From positions 1 through 44,525 of IMG/VR virus record IMGVR_UViG_3300021420_000064: DNA of 44,525 nt; one strand, written 5' to 3'. Positions within the stretch are counted from its first letter, which is position 1. Each line of letters opens with the position of its first letter. Below, in pieces: positions 3,747 to 30,577 of this stretch. The DNA is from a virus. The notes under the pieces were generated by a model. That model had not been told where the DNA came from. It was given only the letters and a program-made list of their open reading frames with translations, and did no database searches. Both the position numbers and the translations under genes were made by a program.

Positions 3747-4373
3747 CTACACGCCGGGATCAAACCCGAAATTCTCTCGGGTGTATTTGCGAAGTTCGGC
3801 GTTGCTCATCTGCCCAAGTTTGGGCGCGGGCTCTGTAGTGGCCTTGGCTGATGCGCCCCGCAACGAGGCGACAACCGCCTCCCGATCCTCAGTCACGCCC
3901 TTGTCCGGCAGCTTCGCCACCTTCTGGGAGAGACGCTTGCTGAGCTCCGACTTGACCTTGCCCCACTGGCGCGGGTTTTGCTCGCGTTGCAGATAGGCTT
4001 GGCCTAGTCTCGGATCCTTGCGCGCCTGAGCGTCAAGCCACGCCTCGACCATATCGTCATCGAAAACATCTGCGGGAACTTCCCCGCGGATTTCTCCGAT
4101 CGTCTCGGCAATGGCTCGCTTGTGCTTTTCGTTGGCCCACTCGTTGGCTTGCGCCTTGAGTAGATTAACGTCAGCCGCAAGGGCATTAGGTTCGGGTTGT
4201 GTCGTCGTTGTTACGGGTGGTGAAACCGTGTCCGCCTTCTTGGTGCCCTGGTCGTATTCGGCCAGGAGCGCGTCCAATGCGTCCACATCTTCCCGTGCGC
4301 TGTCGCCTGCATCCGCAACCGGCTTTGCCGTCACGTCTGCCTTATCAACCACGGCCTGCTTGTCGTCACTCAC
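3747..4373 (-). CDS. Scaffolding protein
   Basis: 208 aa from a GTG start with AAGGAG 8 bases upstream. Highly charged, rich in A, K, E and D, no hydrophobic core, with a disordered acidic N-terminus and helical C-terminal half (KVKSELSKRLSQKVAKL) and a short C-terminal helix ending NFGFDPGV. Position directly before the capsid gene and this composition are the hallmark of phage scaffolds, which template procapsid assembly and leave before or during packaging. Sequence similarity within scaffolds is low, so the call is by context and composition. Confidence 0.8.
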   Translation of the reverse strand: MSDDKQAVVDKADVTAKPVADAGDSAREDVDALDALLAEYDQGTKKADTVSPPVTTTTQPEPNALAADVNLLKAQANEWANEKHKRAIAETIGEIRGEVPADVFDDDMVEAWLDAQARKDPRLGQAYLQREQNPRQWGKVKSELSKRLSQKVAKLPDKGVTEDREAVVASLRGASAKATTEPAPKLGQMSNAELRKYTRENFGFDPGV

Positions 4374-4608: not shown

Positions 4609-6406
4609 TGATGATCGCCTCCAAATCGGTCCATCCGCCTTCGCGGAGAATTGCGTCGATCACCGCGTCGAGATTGACCCGCGGCGGCATGCCCATCTTG
4701 ACCTTCATCATGTCGATCTGGACGGCCTGATTGACCGCGGCAATCTTCTGCTGCGACTTCTGCTGCTTTTCCTGCGGCCCACCAGCGCCGAACCACTCGA
4801 ATTGCGCCGCTTCCGGCAGCATCGACTTGTCGAGCTCGACATAGCCGCCATAGGCGTCAATGAAGAACGATATGTTCTCCTTGCTGCCCAAAGCCTGCCG
4901 GCCGAGCGAGTAGGCCATGCTCAGCCAATTCGTCAGCGGCCCTTGGCCGATCTGGTTGACATAATCTGTGGTCCGCACTGCGCCGCGCTGCAATTCCGCA
5001 TCCTTGGCGTAGGCGGTCGTATGGCTTACCGTTGATGCGCCAATTCTCGCCGGAAGCACGCCGGTAAGCTGCGCATAGAGATTGATGAATTGCAGGGCCG
5101 CTTGCGCAAGCGCGCTAGGGTCGCCCCCGATCTGGTCATAGACGGTGACCGGATCATTGGTTTCCCACATCGCATTCGGGAAAATCTCAGGTCCGCCCGA
5201 CTGAGCAAACGCCATGTCGCTGCGGTCATATCCGACAGGCGGTGAGTTCTTGAGCATCGCCGCGTCGAGAAAGCGGTTGGTCGCATCGGTTGCCGCCATC
5301 TGCACCGTGCGGCCCTTCATCAGCGGGCCGGTCGGGTAGGTGTCGTCCGCGCTTTCGTGCATGTACGGGAATAAAAGGTAACTAGAGAACGATTGCTTGC
5401 GGAACCGAAAACGGATCACGCCGCGGCTTGACCCGCCGCCCGGCTCCTGCCCGCCCAAGGCAACAGTGATAATGGCGCCGGGAATGACGACGCTGCGCAC
5501 CGTCTTGCGCGGCACCACGATGTCGCCTTCCATTTCCAGGACTTGGACATAGCCTCTCTTGTCGGGCTGGATCTTGCCCAAAATCTTCGGCATCCAGCCA
5601 CCGTCCTCGTCGTCGGGGTCGGTCGAGCCTTTGTTGGCAGCAAGCGCCAGATTTTCGTATTTCAGATAATCGTGGGCGATGTGCGCCTGTCCGAGCACGG
5701 TAGAGCTGTGCAGCGTCGGCTTCGGCTCATCGAGATAAAGGTTTTTGATCGAGCACGGCACGATGACAGGAATGCGCTGTTTTTCCTTGCGCACCCCACG
5801 CGCCTCAGTGATCCATATGTTCTTGCGCTCGAGCCGACCGCGGCCAACGCCAATGCCGTACTTGAAAGCCTCGGCGTTGATGATGTCGAACCGCGAGGTA
5901 TGGTCGTACTGCTTGAAGTAGTGCAACAGGAACCCATGCACTAGCTTGTCGGCATTGTCCTGATTGACCGATGACGGAATGTAGTTGTCATCCCCGAGCA
6001 CCTTGACGCCGCCTTGGCCCTCGACCCTTTTCAGATAGTCGTCGGTGACTTCGGCGTGGGATTTGAACCAATCGCCATTGTCCGAGAACATCATCCGGCG
6101 CGCATCCGCAGTCAGAACCTCCAATGCCTGCGCCTGCAACGGCAACTCAGTCTCGGCCATCCATTTCTTCTTGGTATCGACTTGGCCGTTCGGCAGTTGC
6201 TTGAACAGAACCGAAGGTTCCATCGCGACTTGCCGGTCGATCTCCTTCCAGGCCCGCTCGCGGTCCTCGCGCGCCGTCTTGCGCCTAGTGTATTCCTCGA
6301 CGATGTAATCGCCGATCCACTTCCAGTCCCGGTCGTCGAAGCGCCTGGATTTCTTGACCTCGCCGGTTGTTCTATCGACGGTCTTTACGTCGTCCTGCTT
6401 GGCCAT
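4496..6406 (-). CDS. Portal protein
   Basis: 636 aa, ATG overlapping the upstream stop as TGATG. The length, the place after the large terminase, and long helices with a glycine/proline tail (GGPGRPAPASG near the C-terminus) fit a podovirus portal, the dodecameric ring at the capsid vertex through which DNA is packed and ejected. The N-terminal 130 residues carry a charged helical region (EEYTRRKTAREDRERAWKEI), as often seen in this gene. The middle holds beta-rich wing/stem segments (VQVLEMEGDIVVPRKTVRSV). The C-terminal barrel region is polar and Q/K-rich (EKQQKSQQKIAAVNQAVQID). Confidence 0.88.
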   Translation of the reverse strand: MAKQDDVKTVDRTTGEVKKSRRFDDRDWKWIGDYIVEEYTRRKTAREDRERAWKEIDRQVAMEPSVLFKQLPNGQVDTKKKWMAETELPLQAQALEVLTADARRMMFSDNGDWFKSHAEVTDDYLKRVEGQGGVKVLGDDNYIPSSVNQDNADKLVHGFLLHYFKQYDHTSRFDIINAEAFKYGIGVGRGRLERKNIWITEARGVRKEKQRIPVIVPCSIKNLYLDEPKPTLHSSTVLGQAHIAHDYLKYENLALAANKGSTDPDDEDGGWMPKILGKIQPDKRGYVQVLEMEGDIVVPRKTVRSVVIPGAIITVALGGQEPGGGSSRGVIRFRFRKQSFSSYLLFPYMHESADDTYPTGPLMKGRTVQMAATDATNRFLDAAMLKNSPPVGYDRSDMAFAQSGGPEIFPNAMWETNDPVTVYDQIGGDPSALAQAALQFINLYAQLTGVLPARIGASTVSHTTAYAKDAELQRGAVRTTDYVNQIGQGPLTNWLSMAYSLGRQALGSKENISFFIDAYGGYVELDKSMLPEAAQFEWFGAGGPQEKQQKSQQKIAAVNQAVQIDMMKVKMGMPPRVNLDAVIDAILREGGWTDLEAIINASPQQPRPGGGPGRPAPASGIPGAAGGDPSAAMAEV

Positions 6407-22360: not shown

Positions 22361-23069
22361 TTACGTGCTCCGTTTTTCCATCACGCCGCAGGAAACCATT
22401 GAACGTCGCGTCCCAGTCCGCACGCATCACAGCTTTTGATTTTGCCCAGTCCCGCATGTCGTCGGCCTTGCGCTCAACGAAGGGTCGAGTCCCTTTCGCA
22501 AAGTGCGAGAGCTTCGGTCCCCAGTCGTCCGGCAAGAGATGTTTTCCTCGCACGCCTCTTACTTTCTTTCTTTCTTCTTCTTTTGTTTGTAGAGGCTTAG
22601 AAGAAGAAGTAAGTAAGTAAGTAAGAGCCTCGGACGTGTTTTTGCTGTCCGGTTCTGTCCGGTTCTGTCCTTGGACTTCCTTGGACTTCCGTTCTCTTTC
22701 CAGTTCTCTCTCGAACTGTTTTCGATCGCGGTCCTGCTTTTTTGAGTTGCAACTAAGACAGGCGGTGACCAGATTTTCGAGCGTTGTTTCTCCTCCCTTC
22801 TTGACCGGGACTACGTGATCGCAGGTCAATCGGTCCTCTGAGCTGCAATAGACGCATCGCCAGTCATCGCGCTCGTACACCTCAACTCTCATCTCAGATG
22901 AGATCGTGGCGCCGGCATCGCGCCGGGCGCTTTGTCGCTGTGCGTCCTTAAGCCTACGAGCCTGCACTCGCTCAATTTCTGATCTCTGATCAGCTTCAAT
23001 TGCAGCGAGAATGGCCTCGACTGGGGCACCAGCCGCAACCATCGCCCGTAGAATCGTAATATCGATCAT
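22239..23069 (-). CDS. Replication organiser with embedded HNH domain, 276 aa
   Basis: Start at ATG 23069, overlapping the GcrA stop (ATGA). A helical N-terminus (ILRAMVAAGAPVEAILAAIE) is followed at about residues 65-120 by an HNH nuclease: YERDDWRCVYCSSEDRLTCD, HVVPVKKGGETTLENLVTAC, LSCNSKKQDR, with two CxxC zinc pairs and DH catalytic histidine. A low-complexity basic linker, built from short tandem DNA repeats, joins it to a C-terminal domain (RDWAKSKAVMRADWDATFNG, FLRRDG) that resembles the end of phage replication-initiation proteins. The nuclease could nick or could be an inserted homing-type domain. Confidence 0.75.
   Translation of the reverse strand: MIDITILRAMVAAGAPVEAILAAIEADQRSEIERVQARRLKDAQRQSARRDAGATISSEMRVEVYERDDWRCVYCSSEDRLTCDHVVPVKKGGETTLENLVTACLSCNSKKQDRDRKQFERELERERKSKEVQGQNRTEPDSKNTSEALTYLLTSSSKPLQTKEEERKKVRGVRGKHLLPDDWGPKLSHFAKGTRPFVERKADDMRDWAKSKAVMRADWDATFNGFLRRDGKTEHVNGTGTSLMDAFDRLDDRAAGAAVNDSDTLRDITPGGDQGR
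22600..22698. repeat. Cluster of short tandem repeats in coding linker
   Basis: Adjacent simple repeats: (AAGT)n near 22609-22625, TCCGGTTCTG twice near 22648-22669 and CTTGGACTTC twice near 22671-22690. All fall in the linker between the HNH and C-terminal domains of the replication protein and keep its frame here. Slippage at the 4-base repeat would shift the frame. Confidence 0.75.
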
Positions 23070-23587
23070 GCCGCCTTCCGCTTTCGATAATTCCGCGCCG
23101 CCTCGCGCCGGCCCATTTCGGCAGCCGCACGCGATATGGTTCGGCCACCGCTGGCGATGGACATGCGGTAGTGCCGCGCGCAGTACGAGCAGCCGGCCGC
23201 CGCGGTATCGCCGCAGAACAGCGTCGCCAGCCCTTCGCCGACGACCGGCCAACGGCAGCTATCGGCTTGCAGCTCGAGCAGCGTCAGCGGATTGGCGACG
23301 TGTTCGTGAATGAGCTCGTGTGTGTCCGGCGCCAGCGGGGGCACAATGTCGAACAGATTGCCGCGGCGCTTCGCTCGCTTGGGATGTGTCGGTTGTGGTT
23401 TTTGCTGTGCGGACTTGCATTTGAGAGTTATGCGGCACCGCAAGCCCAGCCGGTGTGCCTTGCCGATGGCGGCACTGCGGCCGACCTTGAGAATGGCCGC
23501 GATTTGCGAAAATGGTAGATTTTCCGCATGCAGCGCGCGTAGTTGCGCTATTTTCTCATCGTTCCATGTGGGTGGAAAAATGCTCAT
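23066..23587 (-). CDS. gcrA: GcrA-family cell-cycle regulator homolog, 173 aa
   Basis: Start ATG 23587, ATGA-coupled to the nuclease upstream. The N-terminal HTH is WNDEKIAQLRALHAENLPFS then QIAAILKVGRSAAIGKAHRL, the GcrA signature. The C-terminus keeps the sigma-factor-binding style motif CRWPVVGEG with LFCGDTAAAGCSYCARH. In alphaproteobacteria GcrA binds sigma70-RNA polymerase and activates promoters with methylated GANTC sites. A phage copy could redirect host cell-cycle transcription or control phage promoters that carry GANTC. Confidence 0.9.
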   Translation of the reverse strand: MSIFPPTWNDEKIAQLRALHAENLPFSQIAAILKVGRSAAIGKAHRLGLRCRITLKCKSAQQKPQPTHPKRAKRRGNLFDIVPPLAPDTHELIHEHVANPLTLLELQADSCRWPVVGEGLATLFCGDTAAAGCSYCARHYRMSIASGGRTISRAAAEMGRREAARNYRKRKAA

Positions 23588-24015
23588 ACCGTCGTGCCCC
23601 GGATCAGGCCCCACCGCTCAAGGCAGCGCAGCGCACGATCGATGTCGTGGCAGATCACGGCATGGCCGCCGGCCGCATTCACGTCCGAGGCAAATTCCAT
23701 CTGCTCCTCGGTCGGACGCGCGCTGTCGCCGGCCTTGAGCTCCATCGCGTAGAAATTGCCGCGGTGGACGAAAACCAGGTCGCTGACACCCTTGCGGAAT
23801 CCCATCCGCTTGAGCCGGATCGCCTCAAGCGGAACACCGCTTTTGGTGCGTTTCCCGCCTAATTTGCTGCTGTTTGGTGTGTGCCAATAGACGACATCGG
23901 GGTATTTTCGCGCCTCGATGTGCAGGACCAAATCAGCCTGCATGTCATCTTCGGGATGTTTCCGCGCACGACGGCGCGGCTCAGACGGCAACAGGAATGG
24001 CGCGGGTGCGTGCAT
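23584..24015 (-). CDS. VRR-NUC domain nuclease, 143 aa
   Basis: Start at ATG 24015 with GGAG 7 bases upstream; a GTG at 24051 is possible but weaker. The PD-(D/E)xK-type core is visible as GFRKGVSDLVFVHRGNFYAM then ELKAGDSARPTEEQMEF, giving the D...ExK metal site, with conserved Q in the following helix. VRR-NUC proteins act as structure-specific nucleases such as Holliday-junction resolvases. In the early operon it would process replication or recombination intermediates before packaging. Confidence 0.88.
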   Translation of the reverse strand: MHAPAPFLLPSEPRRRARKHPEDDMQADLVLHIEARKYPDVVYWHTPNSSKLGGKRTKSGVPLEAIRLKRMGFRKGVSDLVFVHRGNFYAMELKAGDSARPTEEQMEFASDVNAAGGHAVICHDIDRALRCLERWGLIRGTTV

Positions 24016-24483: not shown

Positions 24484-24699
24484 TCATGCGTCGATATCCG
24501 CCGATTTGAAGCCAAAGACGGTGCGATCTGCCGACTTGCCGAGCCGGGCCAACTCATCGGAAAAAGTCATGAAGTATCGCGGGGGAATTAGACCTGCGGC
24601 TTTCCAGTTGGAGACGGCTGGTGCGCCAACTCCGGTCAAAACGGACGCGGCAGTTGTGCCGCCCACAGCCTCGATGATGGCATCGACTGACGAAAGCAT
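24484..24699 (-). CDS. Cro-like repressor, 71 aa
   Basis: HTH of the Cro/YdaS type: DAIIEAVGGTTAASVLTGVG then APAVSNWKAAGLIPPRYF, where SNWK is the recognition-helix core. The ATG at 24699 is preferred over 24723 because the leftward promoter -10 (24705-24710) would place the RNA start right at 24699, making the message leaderless. The upstream ATG overlaps the operator. It faces the CI-like gene across three operators and should shut off the lysogenic promoter. Confidence 0.75.
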   Translation of the reverse strand: MLSSVDAIIEAVGGTTAASVLTGVGAPAVSNWKAAGLIPPRYFMTFSDELARLGKSADRTVFGFKSADIDA

Positions 24700-24704
24700 G
24701 CCCT

Positions 24705-24734
24705 CTTCTACTTCATGGTTCATGAAGAAGTCAA
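24705..24734 (-). promoter_or_regulatory. Leftward early promoter with nested operator
   Basis: Reading leftward: TTGACT (24734-24729), an 18-base spacer that contains the whole palindrome CTTCATGAACCATGAAG (24727-24711), then TAGAAG (24710-24705). The layout is the same as in the rightward promoter at 25352-25381. A repressor bound to the palindrome would block polymerase. Confidence 0.65.
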
Positions 24735-24775
24735 GCCTTCATGAAGCCGCGATAGACGCGGACGACTTCATGAAA
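24711..24775. promoter_or_regulatory. Operator cluster of the lysogeny switch
   Basis: Three sites built on TTCATGAA: CTTCATGGTTCATGAAG at 24711-24727, CTTCATGAAG at 24737-24746 and CTTCATGAAA at 24766-24775. The first is repeated exactly at 25359-25375. Three graded sites between divergent cro-like and cI-like genes match the lambda-type arrangement. Confidence 0.7.
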
Positions 24776-25096
24776 TTTGATGTGGGTATGGCCGACGATC
24801 GCGCAGATGTAGTTTTTCGACTTACGCTGCTTCCAAAAGTTCTAGGGAAGAACAAAACAAGTATTGCCAAGTCTGTAGGTGTGTCCCCAAGTGCTTGGTC
24901 TAATTATATAAATCCAGACCCTACGCCAGACAACAAAACTACAATACCGTGGGAAACGGCAACTGAATTGAAAGAGCTATACGGCCTAACCCTGGACTGG
25001 ATTTACTGTGGAGATCTGACCAGTGTGCGGGATCAGGAACTTCGCGACAAGATACGTGCGGCCGAAAGAGCCGCGAAGCCACGCAAACGGGCTTAG
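24770..25096 (+). CDS. CI-like HTH repressor, 108 aa
   Basis: XRE-type HTH: RLTLLPKVLGKNKTSIAKSV then GVSPSAWSNYI, with ELKELYGLTLDWIYCGD after it, as in short phage repressors. There is no C-terminal peptidase domain, so induction by RecA-driven self-cleavage is not expected. In-frame starts exist at 24722, 24770 and 24788; 24722 would overlap the operator and the Cro-side start, so 24770 is chosen with moderate confidence. The gene is visibly richer in A and T than its neighbours, pointing to separate origin. Confidence 0.78.
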   Translation: MKFDVGMADDRADVVFRLTLLPKVLGKNKTSIAKSVGVSPSAWSNYINPDPTPDNKTTIPWETATELKELYGLTLDWIYCGDLTSVRDQELRDKIRAAERAAKPRKRA

Positions 25097-25304
25097 GCTT
25101 GGCATAGCCCTCATTGCCATTCTAAGCCTCACCGGCTGCGGTCACATTCAGACCCTTGCCGAGCAGGACGACGCAAAATGCCGATCCTACGGGGCCGATC
25201 TGGGCTCTGCGGCCTATATCCAGTGCCGAGCACAGCTAGAGGCGGCCAACCGCCAAGCCGGAGAAATCCAGCACCAAACGCATGTTGAGCAGTATGGCTG
25301 GTGA
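25023..25304 (+). CDS. Small lipoprotein
   Basis: Hydrophobic segment LGIALIAILSLTGC ends in a lipobox (LTGC). The mature part has DDAKCRSYGADLGSAAYIQC, a pattern I know from small Rhizobiales lipoproteins. The only standard start is GTG 25023, inside the repressor gene, giving a long 28-residue lead before the membrane part; the true start may be nearer 25090 on a non-standard codon. Expressed next to the repressor, it could alter the lysogen surface, for example in superinfection exclusion. Confidence 0.6.
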   Translation: MCGIRNFATRYVRPKEPRSHANGLRLGIALIAILSLTGCGHIQTLAEQDDAKCRSYGADLGSAAYIQCRAQLEAANRQAGEIQHQTHVEQYGW

Positions 25305-25351
25305 TCCACACAGACCATGAACACGCATTTCATGATATTTGAAATTATCCG

Positions 25352-25381
25352 TTGACAGCTTCATGGTTCATGAAGTAGTGT
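25352..25381 (+). promoter_or_regulatory. Rightward promoter with nested operator
   Basis: TTGACA (25352-25357), an 18-base spacer holding the exact palindrome CTTCATGGTTCATGAAG (25359-25375), then TAGTGT (25376-25381). The RNA would start near 25388, about 18 bases before the first ATG of the rightward operon at 25406, which has GGAG 8 bases upstream. A half-related TTTCATGATATTTGAAA lies just before it (25328-25344). Confidence 0.7.
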
Positions 25382-25405
25382 GCCTCCACATTCGGAGAGC
25401 ACAGC

Positions 25406-25696
25406 ATGACTTTCGCACCAATCACCAGCGGCCACGCGCTCGCCCTAGCGATGGGTGTTGTGTTGGACTCTGCCGGGCCACAGAAGCCCGCCCAGCGCAC
25501 GCCATACGAGGAAGGCTGGTCAGCCGGCTACCGCGGCGAGCCATCCAGCGGCCGCGCTAACCCGTATAGGCGCGGCATCCGCGGCCAGTGTGCCGCAGCG
25601 GATGTCGCCGCGGACTGCTGGGAGGCCGGCCATACCCGCGGCTGGCATCAGGCTCAAATTGACATCGATGAAAAGCGCCGGGACGCCGCGCGATGA
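25406..25696 (+). CDS. First protein of rightward operon, 96 aa
   Basis: GGAG lies 8 bases before the ATG. Contains YEEGWSAGYRGEPSSGRANP and CWEAGHTRGWHQAQIDID, rich in G, W, R and charged residues; the EGW.AGY and EAGHTRGW pieces look like an internal repeat. No family recognised. Directly under the operator-controlled promoter, so expected to be repressed in the lysogen. Confidence 0.75.
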   Translation: MTFAPITSGHALALAMGVVLDSAGPQKPAQRTPYEEGWSAGYRGEPSSGRANPYRRGIRGQCAAADVAADCWEAGHTRGWHQAQIDIDEKRRDAAR

Positions 25697-25863
25697 TCCC
25701 GCCCGCCATCCGCACGAACTATTGGGCCAAGCCCATCCCGCCGCGGCAATTCGATTGGGAAGCGGTGACGGACAATTACGAGCCCGGCGCACCGATCGGC
25801 TACGGCGCAACGGAGCAGGAAGCGATAGACGACCTGCTCGAGCAAATCGAGGCCAACGCATGA
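25693..25863 (+). CDS. Small protein, 56 aa
   Basis: ATGA overlap at both ends. Sequence NYWAKPIPPRQFDWEAVTDN then GYGATEQEAIDDLLEQIE resembles a small ORF common in rhizobial phages. Function unknown. Confidence 0.7.
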   Translation: MIPPAIRTNYWAKPIPPRQFDWEAVTDNYEPGAPIGYGATEQEAIDDLLEQIEANA

Positions 25864-26081
25864 GGATCGACTGGAAAAAATTCAGCCGTGATGTTCGTGA
25901 GACGATGAGAAATGGCTACATGGGCGTGCGCGAATTAGACCGCGAGACGGGCATCAACAAAGCAACAATCTCGCGTGCGCGGCACAGCAAAACAATGAGC
26001 GCGAAAAGTTTCATGTGGATATGCGGTGAATTTGACTTGGACCCTTGGGCCTACGTCATTTTGGAAAGCCGAAACCCATGA
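25860..26081 (+). CDS. Small HTH protein, 73 aa
   Basis: ATGA-coupled. VRELDRETGINKATISRARH is a clear helix-turn-helix, followed by SFMWICGEFDLDPWAYVILE, the helical ending seen in XRE-type regulators. A candidate anti-repressor or auxiliary regulator of the early rightward genes. Confidence 0.75.
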   Translation: MRIDWKKFSRDVRETMRNGYMGVRELDRETGINKATISRARHSKTMSAKSFMWICGEFDLDPWAYVILESRNP

Positions 26082-27762: not shown

Positions 27763-28053
27763 ATGTTTGTCGAGACGAAACGGGAAGGCGAGGCGCAGAC
27801 CGAGCCAAAACCATCCTTAGCCGGCTTCGCCGCGTGGCTCGAAAATAAAGAGCCGGACGAAATCTATAATTGGGCGGACTGCCGCGGCGGGTGTGCCGTG
27901 AGCCAATATTTTAGCTCCCTCACAAAATCACTCGATCCGATTGCCAGTCTTTGGAGGGACTATGGCGGCGAACTCGATCCTCTCGCGCGGAAGCTTCCCC
28001 ATACCTTCGGCGCACTTCTCACACGCGCACGACGTTCCCTCTCCGGGGGTTAA
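27763..28053 (+). CDS. Hypothetical protein, 96 aa
   Basis: Good ribosome site (AAGGAG, 9 bases before ATG). LAGFAAWLENKEPDEIYNWA with DCRGGCAVSQYFSSL suggests a small helical protein with two cysteines. No family recognised; its end overlaps the longer open frame discussed under the methyltransferase. Confidence 0.7.
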   Translation: MFVETKREGEAQTEPKPSLAGFAAWLENKEPDEIYNWADCRGGCAVSQYFSSLTKSLDPIASLWRDYGGELDPLARKLPHTFGALLTRARRSLSGG

Positions 28054-28063
28054 TCGACATCGT

Positions 28064-28951
28064 ATGCCCGCCTACTACAACGAGAACGATCCTTATGCCG
28101 CCCAATGGCTCCGCAACCTCATCCAAGCCGGACACATCGCGCCAGGCGACGTTGACGAGCGGAGCATCGTTGACGTTACCGGGCCCGAGCTTGTCGGATA
28201 CACGCAGTGTCACTTCTTCGCTGGCATTGGCGGATGGTCCATTGCCCTCAGACTCGCGGGATGGCCGGACAACCGACCTGTTTGGACAGGTTCCTGTCCC
28301 TGCCAGCCCTTCTCCGCAGCCGGGGCGGGCAAGGCGGCCGATGACGGACGCCATCTGTGGCCTGCGTGGTTTTCTCTCATCGCCCAGCGCCACCCTGCAA
28401 TCGTCTTTGGAGAGCAGGTTGATGCGGCAATTGGATGGGGCTGGCTCGACGTTGTTTTCTCTGATCTGGAAGGCGAAGGCTACGCCTGCGGGGCGACCGT
28501 ACTGCCAGCTTGCGGCATCGGCGCGCCGCACTACCGGGCCCGAGCTTGGTTCGTGGCCGACGCCAATGGCGGGGACGCCAGCGCAGAAGGGCTACAACGA
28601 GGCGGGGAACACGGACAGCGGGCGAAAGACAGTGAGCCTGTGCGCTTGGGCAACGCCAACAGCACGCGACGGCCGGTCAGAATGGGGCTCATCGGAAATG
28701 ATGAAGCGGCGCCAATCTCGATCAGAAGGCAAGCCACTCAGCAAACAGGCCATTGGAGCGATTGCGATTGGATCGGCTGCACAGACGGGAAAGCGCGGCC
28801 TGTTGAGCCCGGATCATTCCCGCTGGCTCATGGGGTACGGCGCCGAACATCTAAGCTGCGCGCCTACGGCAACGCCATCGTCCCGCAAGTCGCGGCGGAG
28901 TTTATCATCGCGGCCGAACAAGCGCGACTAACTGGGGAGGAGCAAACATGA
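28064..28951 (+). CDS. dcm: C5-cytosine DNA methyltransferase, 295 aa
   Basis: From ATG 28064. Motif I CHFFAGIGGWSIALRLAGW at about 49-67, catalytic PCQP with Cys80, the ENV-equivalent GEQV at 116-119 (Gln replaces Asn), motif VIII-like HYRARAWFVAD, and motif X GNAIVPQVAAEF near the end. It would methylate cytosine to shield phage DNA from restriction. The target-recognition stretch (about 170-255) is low in hydrophobic residues and odd for this family; a second frame there reads like another protein (see 28341-28931). Confidence 0.9.
   Translation: MPAYYNENDPYAAQWLRNLIQAGHIAPGDVDERSIVDVTGPELVGYTQCHFFAGIGGWSIALRLAGWPDNRPVWTGSCPCQPFSAAGAGKAADDGRHLWPAWFSLIAQRHPAIVFGEQVDAAIGWGWLDVVFSDLEGEGYACGATVLPACGIGAPHYRARAWFVADANGGDASAEGLQRGGEHGQRAKDSEPVRLGNANSTRRPVRMGLIGNDEAAPISIRRQATQQTGHWSDCDWIGCTDGKARPVEPGSFPLAHGVRRRTSKLRAYGNAIVPQVAAEFIIAAEQARLTGEEQT
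28341..28931 (+). CDS. Overprinted ORF within the methyltransferase gene
   Basis: A different frame is open from 27951 to 28931; the part from ATG 28341 on (196 aa) reads LQSSLESRLMRQLDGAGSTL, FSLIWKAKATPAGRPYCQLA, SWPTPMAGTPAQ, LSPDHSRWLMGYGAEH and PTATPSSRKSRRS. From memory, proteins with these blocks occur as separate genes in many metagenomic phages, some near Dcm-type genes. The usual start MTDLFG is TTDLFG here, so the normal start codon seems lost and translation would need another site. Either dual coding or a relic. Confidence 0.45.
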   Translation: MTDAICGLRGFLSSPSATLQSSLESRLMRQLDGAGSTLFSLIWKAKATPAGRPYCQLAASARRTTGPELGSWPTPMAGTPAQKGYNEAGNTDSGRKTVSLCAWATPTARDGRSEWGSSEMMKRRQSRSEGKPLSKQAIGAIAIGSAAQTGKRGLLSPDHSRWLMGYGAEHLSCAPTATPSSRKSRRSLSSRPNKRD

Positions 28952-29391: not shown

Positions 29392-29661
29392 ATGACCAAG
29401 CCGCTTCCATATCCCCCGCCCTGGCAAGACAAGGAAACCCTTGCGCTGCACCTGAGCGTGTCAGCGAACACAATCGAGAATTGGGCGGCCCAAGGCATCA
29501 TTCCGCCGCCCCGCAAGCGCGGTGGAAAAGTCATGTGGAAATGGTCGGAAGTGGATGAGAAGCTTACACTCGGCGAAGCTGGCGGGTCACCCGACAGCCA
29601 AGCCGAAAGGATACGCAATGGAACAAGAGCGGCGGCGGCCGAAACTCGCCCTCATCACTGA
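29392..29661 (+). CDS. xis: Excisionase / AlpA-like HTH protein, 89 aa
   Basis: DKETLALHLSVSANTIENWA then AQGIIPPPRKRGGKVMWKW is the winged HTH of AlpA/Xis proteins. It lies directly before the integrase and overlaps its start by 44 bases. Acts with the integrase to control prophage excision. The C-terminal 25 residues are low in structure. Confidence 0.8.
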   Translation: MTKPLPYPPPWQDKETLALHLSVSANTIENWAAQGIIPPPRKRGGKVMWKWSEVDEKLTLGEAGGSPDSQAERIRNGTRAAAAETRPHH

Positions 29662-30577
29662 GGACAGTTTCGCCAGCCTCGTGCGGCTGTTCATGTCGCC
29701 GGCCAATCCGAAGTGGCACAGTCCGCAGCCGGTCGGCTATGCGGATTCGACCAAGACGACGTGGGCGCGCGAACTGCGCTTTGCCGCTCGGCCCGATTGT
29801 CTCGGCTCCCTATCGCTACAGGAAATTCGCCCGGCGCTGGTCCAAGCCTATTTCGACGGCCTCTCCGATCGCCCCGGTAAGCAAGCGGCGGCCCTCACGG
29901 TGATGCGGCAACTTGAGGCATGGGCTATCGTGCGCGACCTCCTGCCCCGACAAATCACCCTCGGTGTCGAGATCGGCGAATGCGACGGCGGCCACGTTCC
30001 GTGGAGCGATGAGCAGGTTGCCGCGGCCGAGCTCCACGCCCGATCGGACTTCGCCCGCGTCGTTACCCTCGGCGCCAACACCGGACAGCGCGGCTCAGAC
30101 CTGGTGAGAATGTGCCCGACCGACATCGAGACTTACAAGGGGATCGACGGCATCAACGTCACCCAGCAAAAGACCGGCCGGCAGATATGGGTACCGATCT
30201 TGGAACCGCTGGCGCGAGCGATTGAAAAATGGGAACGGCGACCGGGGCCGTTCCTGCGGCGCCTCAACGGCCTCCCGTGGCCGCGCCCGGAATTGAGCAA
30301 GCGGTGGGCAGAGGAGCGCGATCGCAATCCCCACCTAGCCCAGCACAGCTCTATTCCGCTCGTGATCCATGGCCTGCGCGGTCATGCTTGCGTGCGCCTA
30401 CGCCGAGCCGGCGCGACCACGATGCAGATCGCCGACATGATCGGGATGTCGGTCGAGATGGTCGAGCAATACTGCCGCCTCTCGGTGCAGCGCGACAATG
30501 CCATTGCCGCCGTCTACCACCTGGACAAAACACTTCAAGAACGAAACGGCTCTCTCGCCTCGAAATCCACCGCGTAA
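29618..30577 (+). CDS. int: Tyrosine integrase, 319 aa
   Basis: Start ATG 29618 with AAAGGA 7 bases upstream. Catalytic residues are in place: Arg158 in ANTGQRGSDL, Lys185 in QQKTGRQIWVP, HGLRGH (His251, Arg254, His256) and nucleophile Tyr285 in MVEQYCRLSV. The N-terminal part is a helical core-binding domain. It integrates the phage into the host chromosome, most likely at a tRNA or similar site. The following gap (30578-30660) holds no recognisable attP; an AT-stretch CCTTTTTTGCT is present. Confidence 0.95.
   Translation: MEQERRRPKLALITEDSFASLVRLFMSPANPKWHSPQPVGYADSTKTTWARELRFAARPDCLGSLSLQEIRPALVQAYFDGLSDRPGKQAAALTVMRQLEAWAIVRDLLPRQITLGVEIGECDGGHVPWSDEQVAAAELHARSDFARVVTLGANTGQRGSDLVRMCPTDIETYKGIDGINVTQQKTGRQIWVPILEPLARAIEKWERRPGPFLRRLNGLPWPRPELSKRWAEERDRNPHLAQHSSIPLVIHGLRGHACVRLRRAGATTMQIADMIGMSVEMVEQYCRLSVQRDNAIAAVYHLDKTLQERNGSLASKSTA

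Follow-up and report, generated by a model that had tools for sequence, protein, structure and literature searches.

A 17-base palindrome that occurs twice, once in the spacer of each of two outward-facing promoters on either side of a small repressor gene, raises the question of whether one operator controls both early operons of a temperate phage. This question was addressed in a window that comprises a whole virus record (44,525 bases, 57% G+C), for which a sequence-only reading had proposed a lysogeny switch with one operator nested in both promoters. The evidence comes from the operators themselves, from related loci that carry matched palindromes of their own, and from the two regulators encoded beside them.

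Operators and promoters of the window

The elements of the region are as follows (left promoter and Cro-like gene on the minus strand, right promoter and repressor gene on the plus strand):

24484-24699, minus strand: Cro-like protein of 71 aa with a helix-turn-helix (HTH) of the YdaS / P22 Cro type (weak Pfam matches, alignment)
24705-24710, minus strand: -10 hexamer TAGAAG of the left promoter (sequence), with the ATG 5 bases on
24711-24727: O1L, operator in the left-promoter spacer, 15-bp core 24712-24726 (motif and promoter scans)
24729-24734, minus strand: -35 hexamer TTGACT of the left promoter (sequence)
24767-24781: O2L, weaker operator (9/12) over the repressor start, 55 bp from O1L
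24770-25096, plus strand: XRE repressor of 108 aa, or of 102 aa from the preferred ATG at 24788 (profile searches, structure model, relatives)
25329-25343: O2R, second right operator TTCATGATATTTGAA (10/12), 31 bp upstream of O1R
25352-25357, plus strand: -35 hexamer TTGACA of the right promoter (sequence)
25359-25375: O1R, operator in the right-promoter spacer, 15-bp core 25360-25374 (motif and promoter scans)
25376-25381, plus strand: -10 hexamer TAGTGT of the right promoter (sequence)

Exact copies of the 17-mer CTTCATGGTTCATGAAG occupy 24711-24727 and 25359-25375, as had been claimed, and the motif scan that the sequence-only reading proposed, run within the window, returned these two copies and no third place even when up to three mismatches were allowed (0.05 matches expected from shuffles). 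The claimed register was also found in the sequence, as both spacers are 18 bases long and the operator occupies positions 2-18 of each. In the sense of transcription, the left promoter reads TTGACT-TCTTCATGAACCATGAAG-TAGAAG and runs leftward from 24734 to 24705, and the right promoter reads TTGACA-GCTTCATGGTTCATGAAG-TAGTGT and runs rightward from 25352 to 25381; both face outward and flank the small XRE repressor gene. The operator has the form TTCATG-N3-CATGAA, and the unit conserved among relatives is 15 bp, in the window TTCATGNNNCATGAA.

A promoter scan for inverted repeats with arms of 6 or more in spacers of 16-19 bases detected only these two promoter-like sites in 44.5 kb. Shuffled windows contained a mean of 1.1 such sites (maximum 4) at arms of 6 or more, and of 0.18 (maximum 1) at arms of 7 or more, the latter being as long as those in the window. 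Both -10 hexamers are weak, each sharing 3/6 bases with TATAAT, and a standard sigma-70 scan of the region recovered neither promoter.

Each side of the switch holds two operators, not three. The two weaker TTCATGAA sites that had been placed toward the repressor gene were rejected as equal operators, since just one of them fits the 15-bp unit: the site at 24766-24775 stands as part of the 9/12 unit at 24767-24781, whereas that at 24737-24746 is a single intact half-site (8/12). Moreover, the earlier list of extra sites had missed a better one, O2R, whose score is reached as background at 2 of 42,910 positions outside the switch.

Matched palindromes in related loci

Loci were gathered via similarity of the repressor or of a neighbouring gene, and were counted only when a matched pair was present. 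In 13 further loci the repressor likewise lies between two copies of a single 15-bp palindrome, giving 14 distinct loci with the window (L005, L006, L127, L129, L131, L132, L134, L135, L142, L143, L144, L145, and L147 being the others). The sequence of the palindrome varies between phages, the copies match inside each phage, and the operator unit measures 15 bp in 14/14 loci. Among four distant repressor relatives from viral contigs, L006 carries GTTGGC-N5-GCCAAC and L005 carries TAAGCA-N3-TGCTTA, in each case twice, on both sides of the repressor and in promoter spacers. The Gp157 query yielded L129 with a GTTCGC-N5-GCGAAC pair and L131 with a GTCAA-N5-TTGAC pair; the set further includes the annotated records MW202785 (L127) and two Bradyrhizobium phages (L134, L135), and the viral contig L132. 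A Bradyrhizobium repressor query added the later loci L142, L143, L144, L145, and L147. L141, a duplicate of L135, and L146, which is incomplete on the right, were not counted.

The longest half-site present on both sides was compared with 200 shuffles per locus. The observed half-site was reached in 0/200 shuffles for the window, L005, L006, and L129, and likewise for each of the five later loci, while L132, L134, and L135 were weaker but positive (3, 9, and 8 of 200, respectively) and the imperfect pair of L127 was not outstanding; because the loci are related to one another, these shuffle tests and the permutation tests below overstate independence. That 13 relatives repeat the layout with other site sequences shows it to be real, and upholds the proposal of a lysogeny switch in which both promoters contain the same operator. 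A repeat that arose by chance or as a recombination duplicate and has no regulatory meaning would account for the exact match of the two copies in the window, and for nothing more. Nevertheless, the copies share only the 17-mer and the promoter frame, and stand in opposite orientation relative to transcription, and the origin by chance or duplication is contradicted by the relatives, which keep the pairing as the sequence changes; we regard it as negligibly probable.

Upstream of the right-hand operator, all 14 loci have a second one at a distance of 30, 31, or 32 bp, and in each of the nine loci tested against shuffled upstream DNA this site was significant (p 0.0014 or less). The centres of O1R and O2R are thus spaced by about three helical turns, a distance that would fit two dimers on one face of the DNA. 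Second sites on the left are less regular, at 55-56 bp in the window and L127 (56 bp in the latter), 24-26 bp in L005, L006, L129, L134, L145, and L147, and 41-45 bp in L135, L142, and L144.

Matched pairs were not found in L003 and L004, which are mutually close and keep the repressor motif LDWIYCGD, and were at chance level beside distant XRE repressors (Paenibacillus, Pseudanabaena, Providencia, and Gordonia phages, L133, and EBPR podovirus 2). Searches for kin of the whole phage by megablast of 12 kb against the phage collection returned only a 50-base methyltransferase fragment, tblastn of the repressor against phages and plasmids returned nothing, and the VRR-NUC query gave no relative. 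Scanning viral contigs for CTTCATGNNNCATGAAG produced 119 stretches, mostly coding coincidences, none of them with the promoter frame TTGACNN..TA, and the scan of genome contigs produced one KSB1 fragment that was left out of the comparison.

Several of these searches brought up sites in other settings. In L068 (11519 and 11747), L102 (3424), and L117 (4296), a small Cro-like gene has CTTCATGNNNCATGAAG at its end, and the one in L068 has a copy upstream as well; by eye these contigs carry Bacillota-like regulator and recombinase genes, so that a similar sequence occurs in an unrelated setting. In L073 the palindrome ACCGATATCGGT is found at 5601 and 6372, in two outward promoter-like spacers 0.77 kb apart. 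Unrelated repressors are flanked by matched pairs in L128 (ATGCA..TGCAT, 3827-3843 and 4179-4191) and in L130 (TTATGGT-N-ACCATAA, 1407-1421 and 1889-1903), two loci whose kinship to the group is through the Gp157 protein. The immunity module seems to be exchanged whole among Gp157-related phages.

The two regulators and their messages

The protein between the promoters has a lambda-repressor-like helical HTH fold according to model and profile. Its AlphaFold2 model is an all-helical HTH domain of six helices (mean pLDDT 79), with the 434 and P22 c2 repressors as Foldseek neighbours at weak E-values, and profile searches matched the 434 repressor (E 2e-6) and PezA (E 1.7e-7); its family matches are below the Pfam cut-offs. 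Translation may start at 24788 (102 aa) and not at 24770 (108 aa), the later start being preferred because residues 1-8 of the longer form are disordered (pLDDT below 50) and the repressors of relatives begin near the later methionine. At 102-108 aa the protein consists of the HTH only and lacks an S24 peptidase domain, so induction through RecA-stimulated self-cleavage is unlikely. A search by eye for a rightward promoter of the repressor gene gave no convincing candidate.

The Cro-like label is based on weak family matches (YdaS_toxin 17.9 bits and P22_Cro 14.8 bits, below the cut-offs of 30.0 and 30.2), on position, and on alignment with the corresponding gene of the other loci. Differences between operator half-sites were compared with protein differences in sliding 10-residue windows across each regulator. 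The best windows of the Cro-like protein lie over the expected recognition helix (PAVSNWKAAG, r 0.61), with a family-wise p, corrected over all windows, of 0.0005 in 14 loci, and of 0.002 with 12 loci and 0.029 with 10 after pruning of near-duplicates. By this measure the predicted binding of the Cro-like protein to the operators is well supported. The top windows of the repressor also cover its recognition helix (SPSAWSNY; p 0.0285, 14 loci), and significance is gone once near-duplicates are dropped (p 0.29); repressor binding, which is expected from the layout, is suggested, its co-variation being weak.

This asymmetry between a strong signal for Cro and a fragile one for the XRE protein would be explained if the YdaS-type protein alone reads the operators, as sites of Cro autoregulation, and the XRE protein acts elsewhere or otherwise. 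Such a division of labour is unlikely, given that the best XRE windows fall on the recognition helix too, that every locus has its operators on either side of the XRE gene, and that the operators of lambda are common to both proteins. In the preferred model both regulators would recognise the same operators. It is conceivable, though doubtful, that the operator and the recognition helices of Cro and repressor change jointly in a standard cassette, consisting of the 15-bp operator in the spacer with a leaderless cro directly behind, and thereby diversify immunity. If true, the operator/helix pairs could be read as a natural DNA-recognition code for the small Cro family.

The predicted -10 lies 5 bases from the Cro-like ATG in the window and 5-9 bases in 14/14 loci, the -10 of each locus having been picked by eye from the fixed register, and this distance is kept despite unrelated operator sequences. 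The annotated cro start in the Bradyrhizobium record of L134 agrees with the short distance. RNA polymerase usually starts 6-8 bases past the -10, so the cro RNA would begin at the AUG or within about two bases of it, and the space between these promoters and the cro ATG is too short for a Shine-Dalgarno sequence. The leaderless Cro message that had been put forward for the window is thus a prediction repeated in 14 loci, and appears well supported at the level of sequence.

The weak -10 matches of the window (just 3/6) would also be accounted for if the palindromes are operators but the hexamers are not promoters, with starts elsewhere and cro transcribed with a normal leader from further upstream. 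Two loci with different operators argue against this, as they keep the register with better hexamers: TTGACA/TATATT and TTGACG/TATAGT in L006, and TTGACT/TATATT and TTGACG/TATATT in L129. Together with the constant 5-9 bases to the ATG, which leave no room for a Shine-Dalgarno sequence, they make starts at other promoters quite improbable, and the hexamers are taken below as the promoters of both operons.

The right-hand messages have a leader, with a GGAG motif in the window. Often an inverted repeat directly follows the right -10, with the Shine-Dalgarno sequence in its second arm; it is seen at 25377-25400 in the window and at the same place in L005, L006, L129, L131, L134, L144, and L147. 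Examples are GCCTCCT..AGGAGGC in L144 and TGCCTCCT..AGGAGGCA in L147, with merely CTCC/GGAG in the window, and the summed arm length over 14 loci is 77 versus 43 in shuffles (largest 71). A hairpin in the RNA at the start of the right message was not accepted as an established feature, as most of the left arm precedes the expected start and folding of the expected right RNA gave z-scores near zero in most loci.

Gene order, the proposed switch, and known systems

The leftward genes are, in order, the 71-aa Cro-like protein, a 90-aa protein, an endonuclease-like protein (phrog_824, phrog_93), and a GcrA-family protein. The latter (23066-23614, minus strand; PF07750, E 6.6e-26) is one of the leftward early genes; GcrA-like proteins were also noted by eye in L128 and L129, and the control genomes that match the GcrA family include Caulobacter. 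GcrA is a cell-cycle regulator of Alphaproteobacteria, and for that reason the host class is probably Alphaproteobacteria; the phage group is poorly known. The rightward genes lead via a Gp157/Gam-like protein to an excisionase-like protein and a tyrosine integrase at the far end:

25406-25696, plus strand: first gene of the right operon, 96 aa, no family match, leader with GGAG
29392-29661, plus strand: excisionase-like HTH protein (phrog_66, E 2e-6; HTH_17, E 1.3e-5, just under the cut-off)
29522-30577, plus strand: tyrosine integrase (Phage_integrase, 33.5 bits, over the cut-off; phrog_1, E 1.5e-19)

The integrase frame overlaps the excisionase frame, and the integrase start codon is ambiguous. 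With the cro side on the left and the xis/int end on the right, the window represents a temperate phage whose gene order mirrors that of lambda.

Three other genes of this stretch were noted. An open frame at 25023-25304 (plus strand, probably from about 25085) overlaps the repressor end, has a lipobox-like LSLTGC and a DDAKCRSYGADLGSAAYIQCRAQL stretch but no Pfam match, and is placed where lambda has rexAB; it could be expressed in the lysogen. In the right operon, 25860-26081 (plus strand) encodes a third small HTH protein (HTH_26, just under the cut-off), possibly another regulator. A C-5 cytosine DNA methylase (28019-28951, plus strand; PF00145, E 6e-15) accounts for the one nucleotide match to the phage collection.

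Taken together, the switch very probably represents a temperate-phage immunity region that follows the lambda plan, in which one operator would shut both early operons. The sequences themselves show the sites, their match inside each phage, their constant spacing, the few bases from -10 to ATG, and the co-variation with the Cro recognition helix; binding, repression, cooperativity, transcript starts, induction, and which of the two proteins maintains lysogeny are inferred. The left promoter would drive the Cro-like protein and the early lytic genes, as on the PR side of lambda, and the right promoter would drive early genes ending in xis and int, as on the PL side. One 15-bp operator fills each promoter spacer, and a repressor or Cro dimer bound there would cover the interval from -35 to -10 and exclude RNA polymerase; with the same operator in both promoters, one protein would shut both operons together. 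A second dimer at O2R, 31 bp upstream on the same face, would allow cooperative binding, the second left site at the repressor start may serve autoregulation, and the Cro-like message would start at or beside its AUG.

The switch itself is ordinary, with a lambda-like layout that is familiar rather than unusual. In both systems the repressor gene lies between two outward promoters, cro is on one side and the xis/int operon on the other (in lambda, the PL side), and extra genes lie between the repressor and the int-side promoter. Moreover, OL1 and OR1 of lambda are located in the spacers of PL (TTGACA..GATACT) and PR (TTGACT..GATAAT), running into the -10. In contrast, each side of the lambda region carries three operators, 20-24 bp apart, where the window has two per side with 31 bp between the right-hand ones; CI has a self-cleaving C-terminal domain, whereas the repressor of the window is short; and lambda cro has a leader and a Shine-Dalgarno sequence, whereas cro of the window is predicted to be leaderless.

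Rhizobium phage 16-3, a characterised alphaproteobacterial phage, has two operators on each side of gene c, and its int and xis genes lie on the PL side; by annotation, OL2 falls within the PL spacer and OR2 overlaps the Pr -10. It differs in that its C protein is 263 aa with a LexA/S24-like second half (by eye) and resembles the repressor of the window in the HTH only (hhalign 55%, 43 HTH columns), its operators are 12-14 bp with OL1 and OL2 just 17 bp apart, they read ACAA..TTGT where the window has TTCATG-N3-CATGAA, and its right-hand gene has a leader. For a leaderless cro, immB of telomere phage PY54 offers a measured precedent, as RACE gave only leaderless mRNAs of cI and cro (PMC4488713). 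Unlike the window, PY54 is a linear plasmid prophage, and its Cro has just one operator to bind and is believed not to repress its own production. The layout of the window is shared by the Bradyrhizobium phages ppBeUSDA76-1 and ppBdUSDA122-1 and by podovirus MW202785 from Manatee Spring, which have matched 15-bp operators, O2R at 31-32 bp, a short distance from -10 to the cro ATG, and a related small repressor, in records without annotated regulatory features. The Bradyrhizobium operators are TTCAC-N5-GTGAA and TACAC-N5-GTGTA, and that of the Manatee Spring phage approximates the window's own.

Operator sequences and both regulators are hereby available for 14 phages of a group in which earlier described operators were found only for 16-3. 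A survey of Sinorhizobium prophages sought the operator sequences of lambda or 16-3 and found none (PMC12429752); operators can be recovered with no prior knowledge of their sequence by searching for matched palindromes that flank the repressor. The operator/regulator pairs make superinfection immunity groups predictable, and form a ready set for testing DNA recognition by the small Cro family. The locus is a new member of the lambda-type switches, of which the number of operators, the 31-bp pair, the short repressor, and the predicted leaderless cro are variations.
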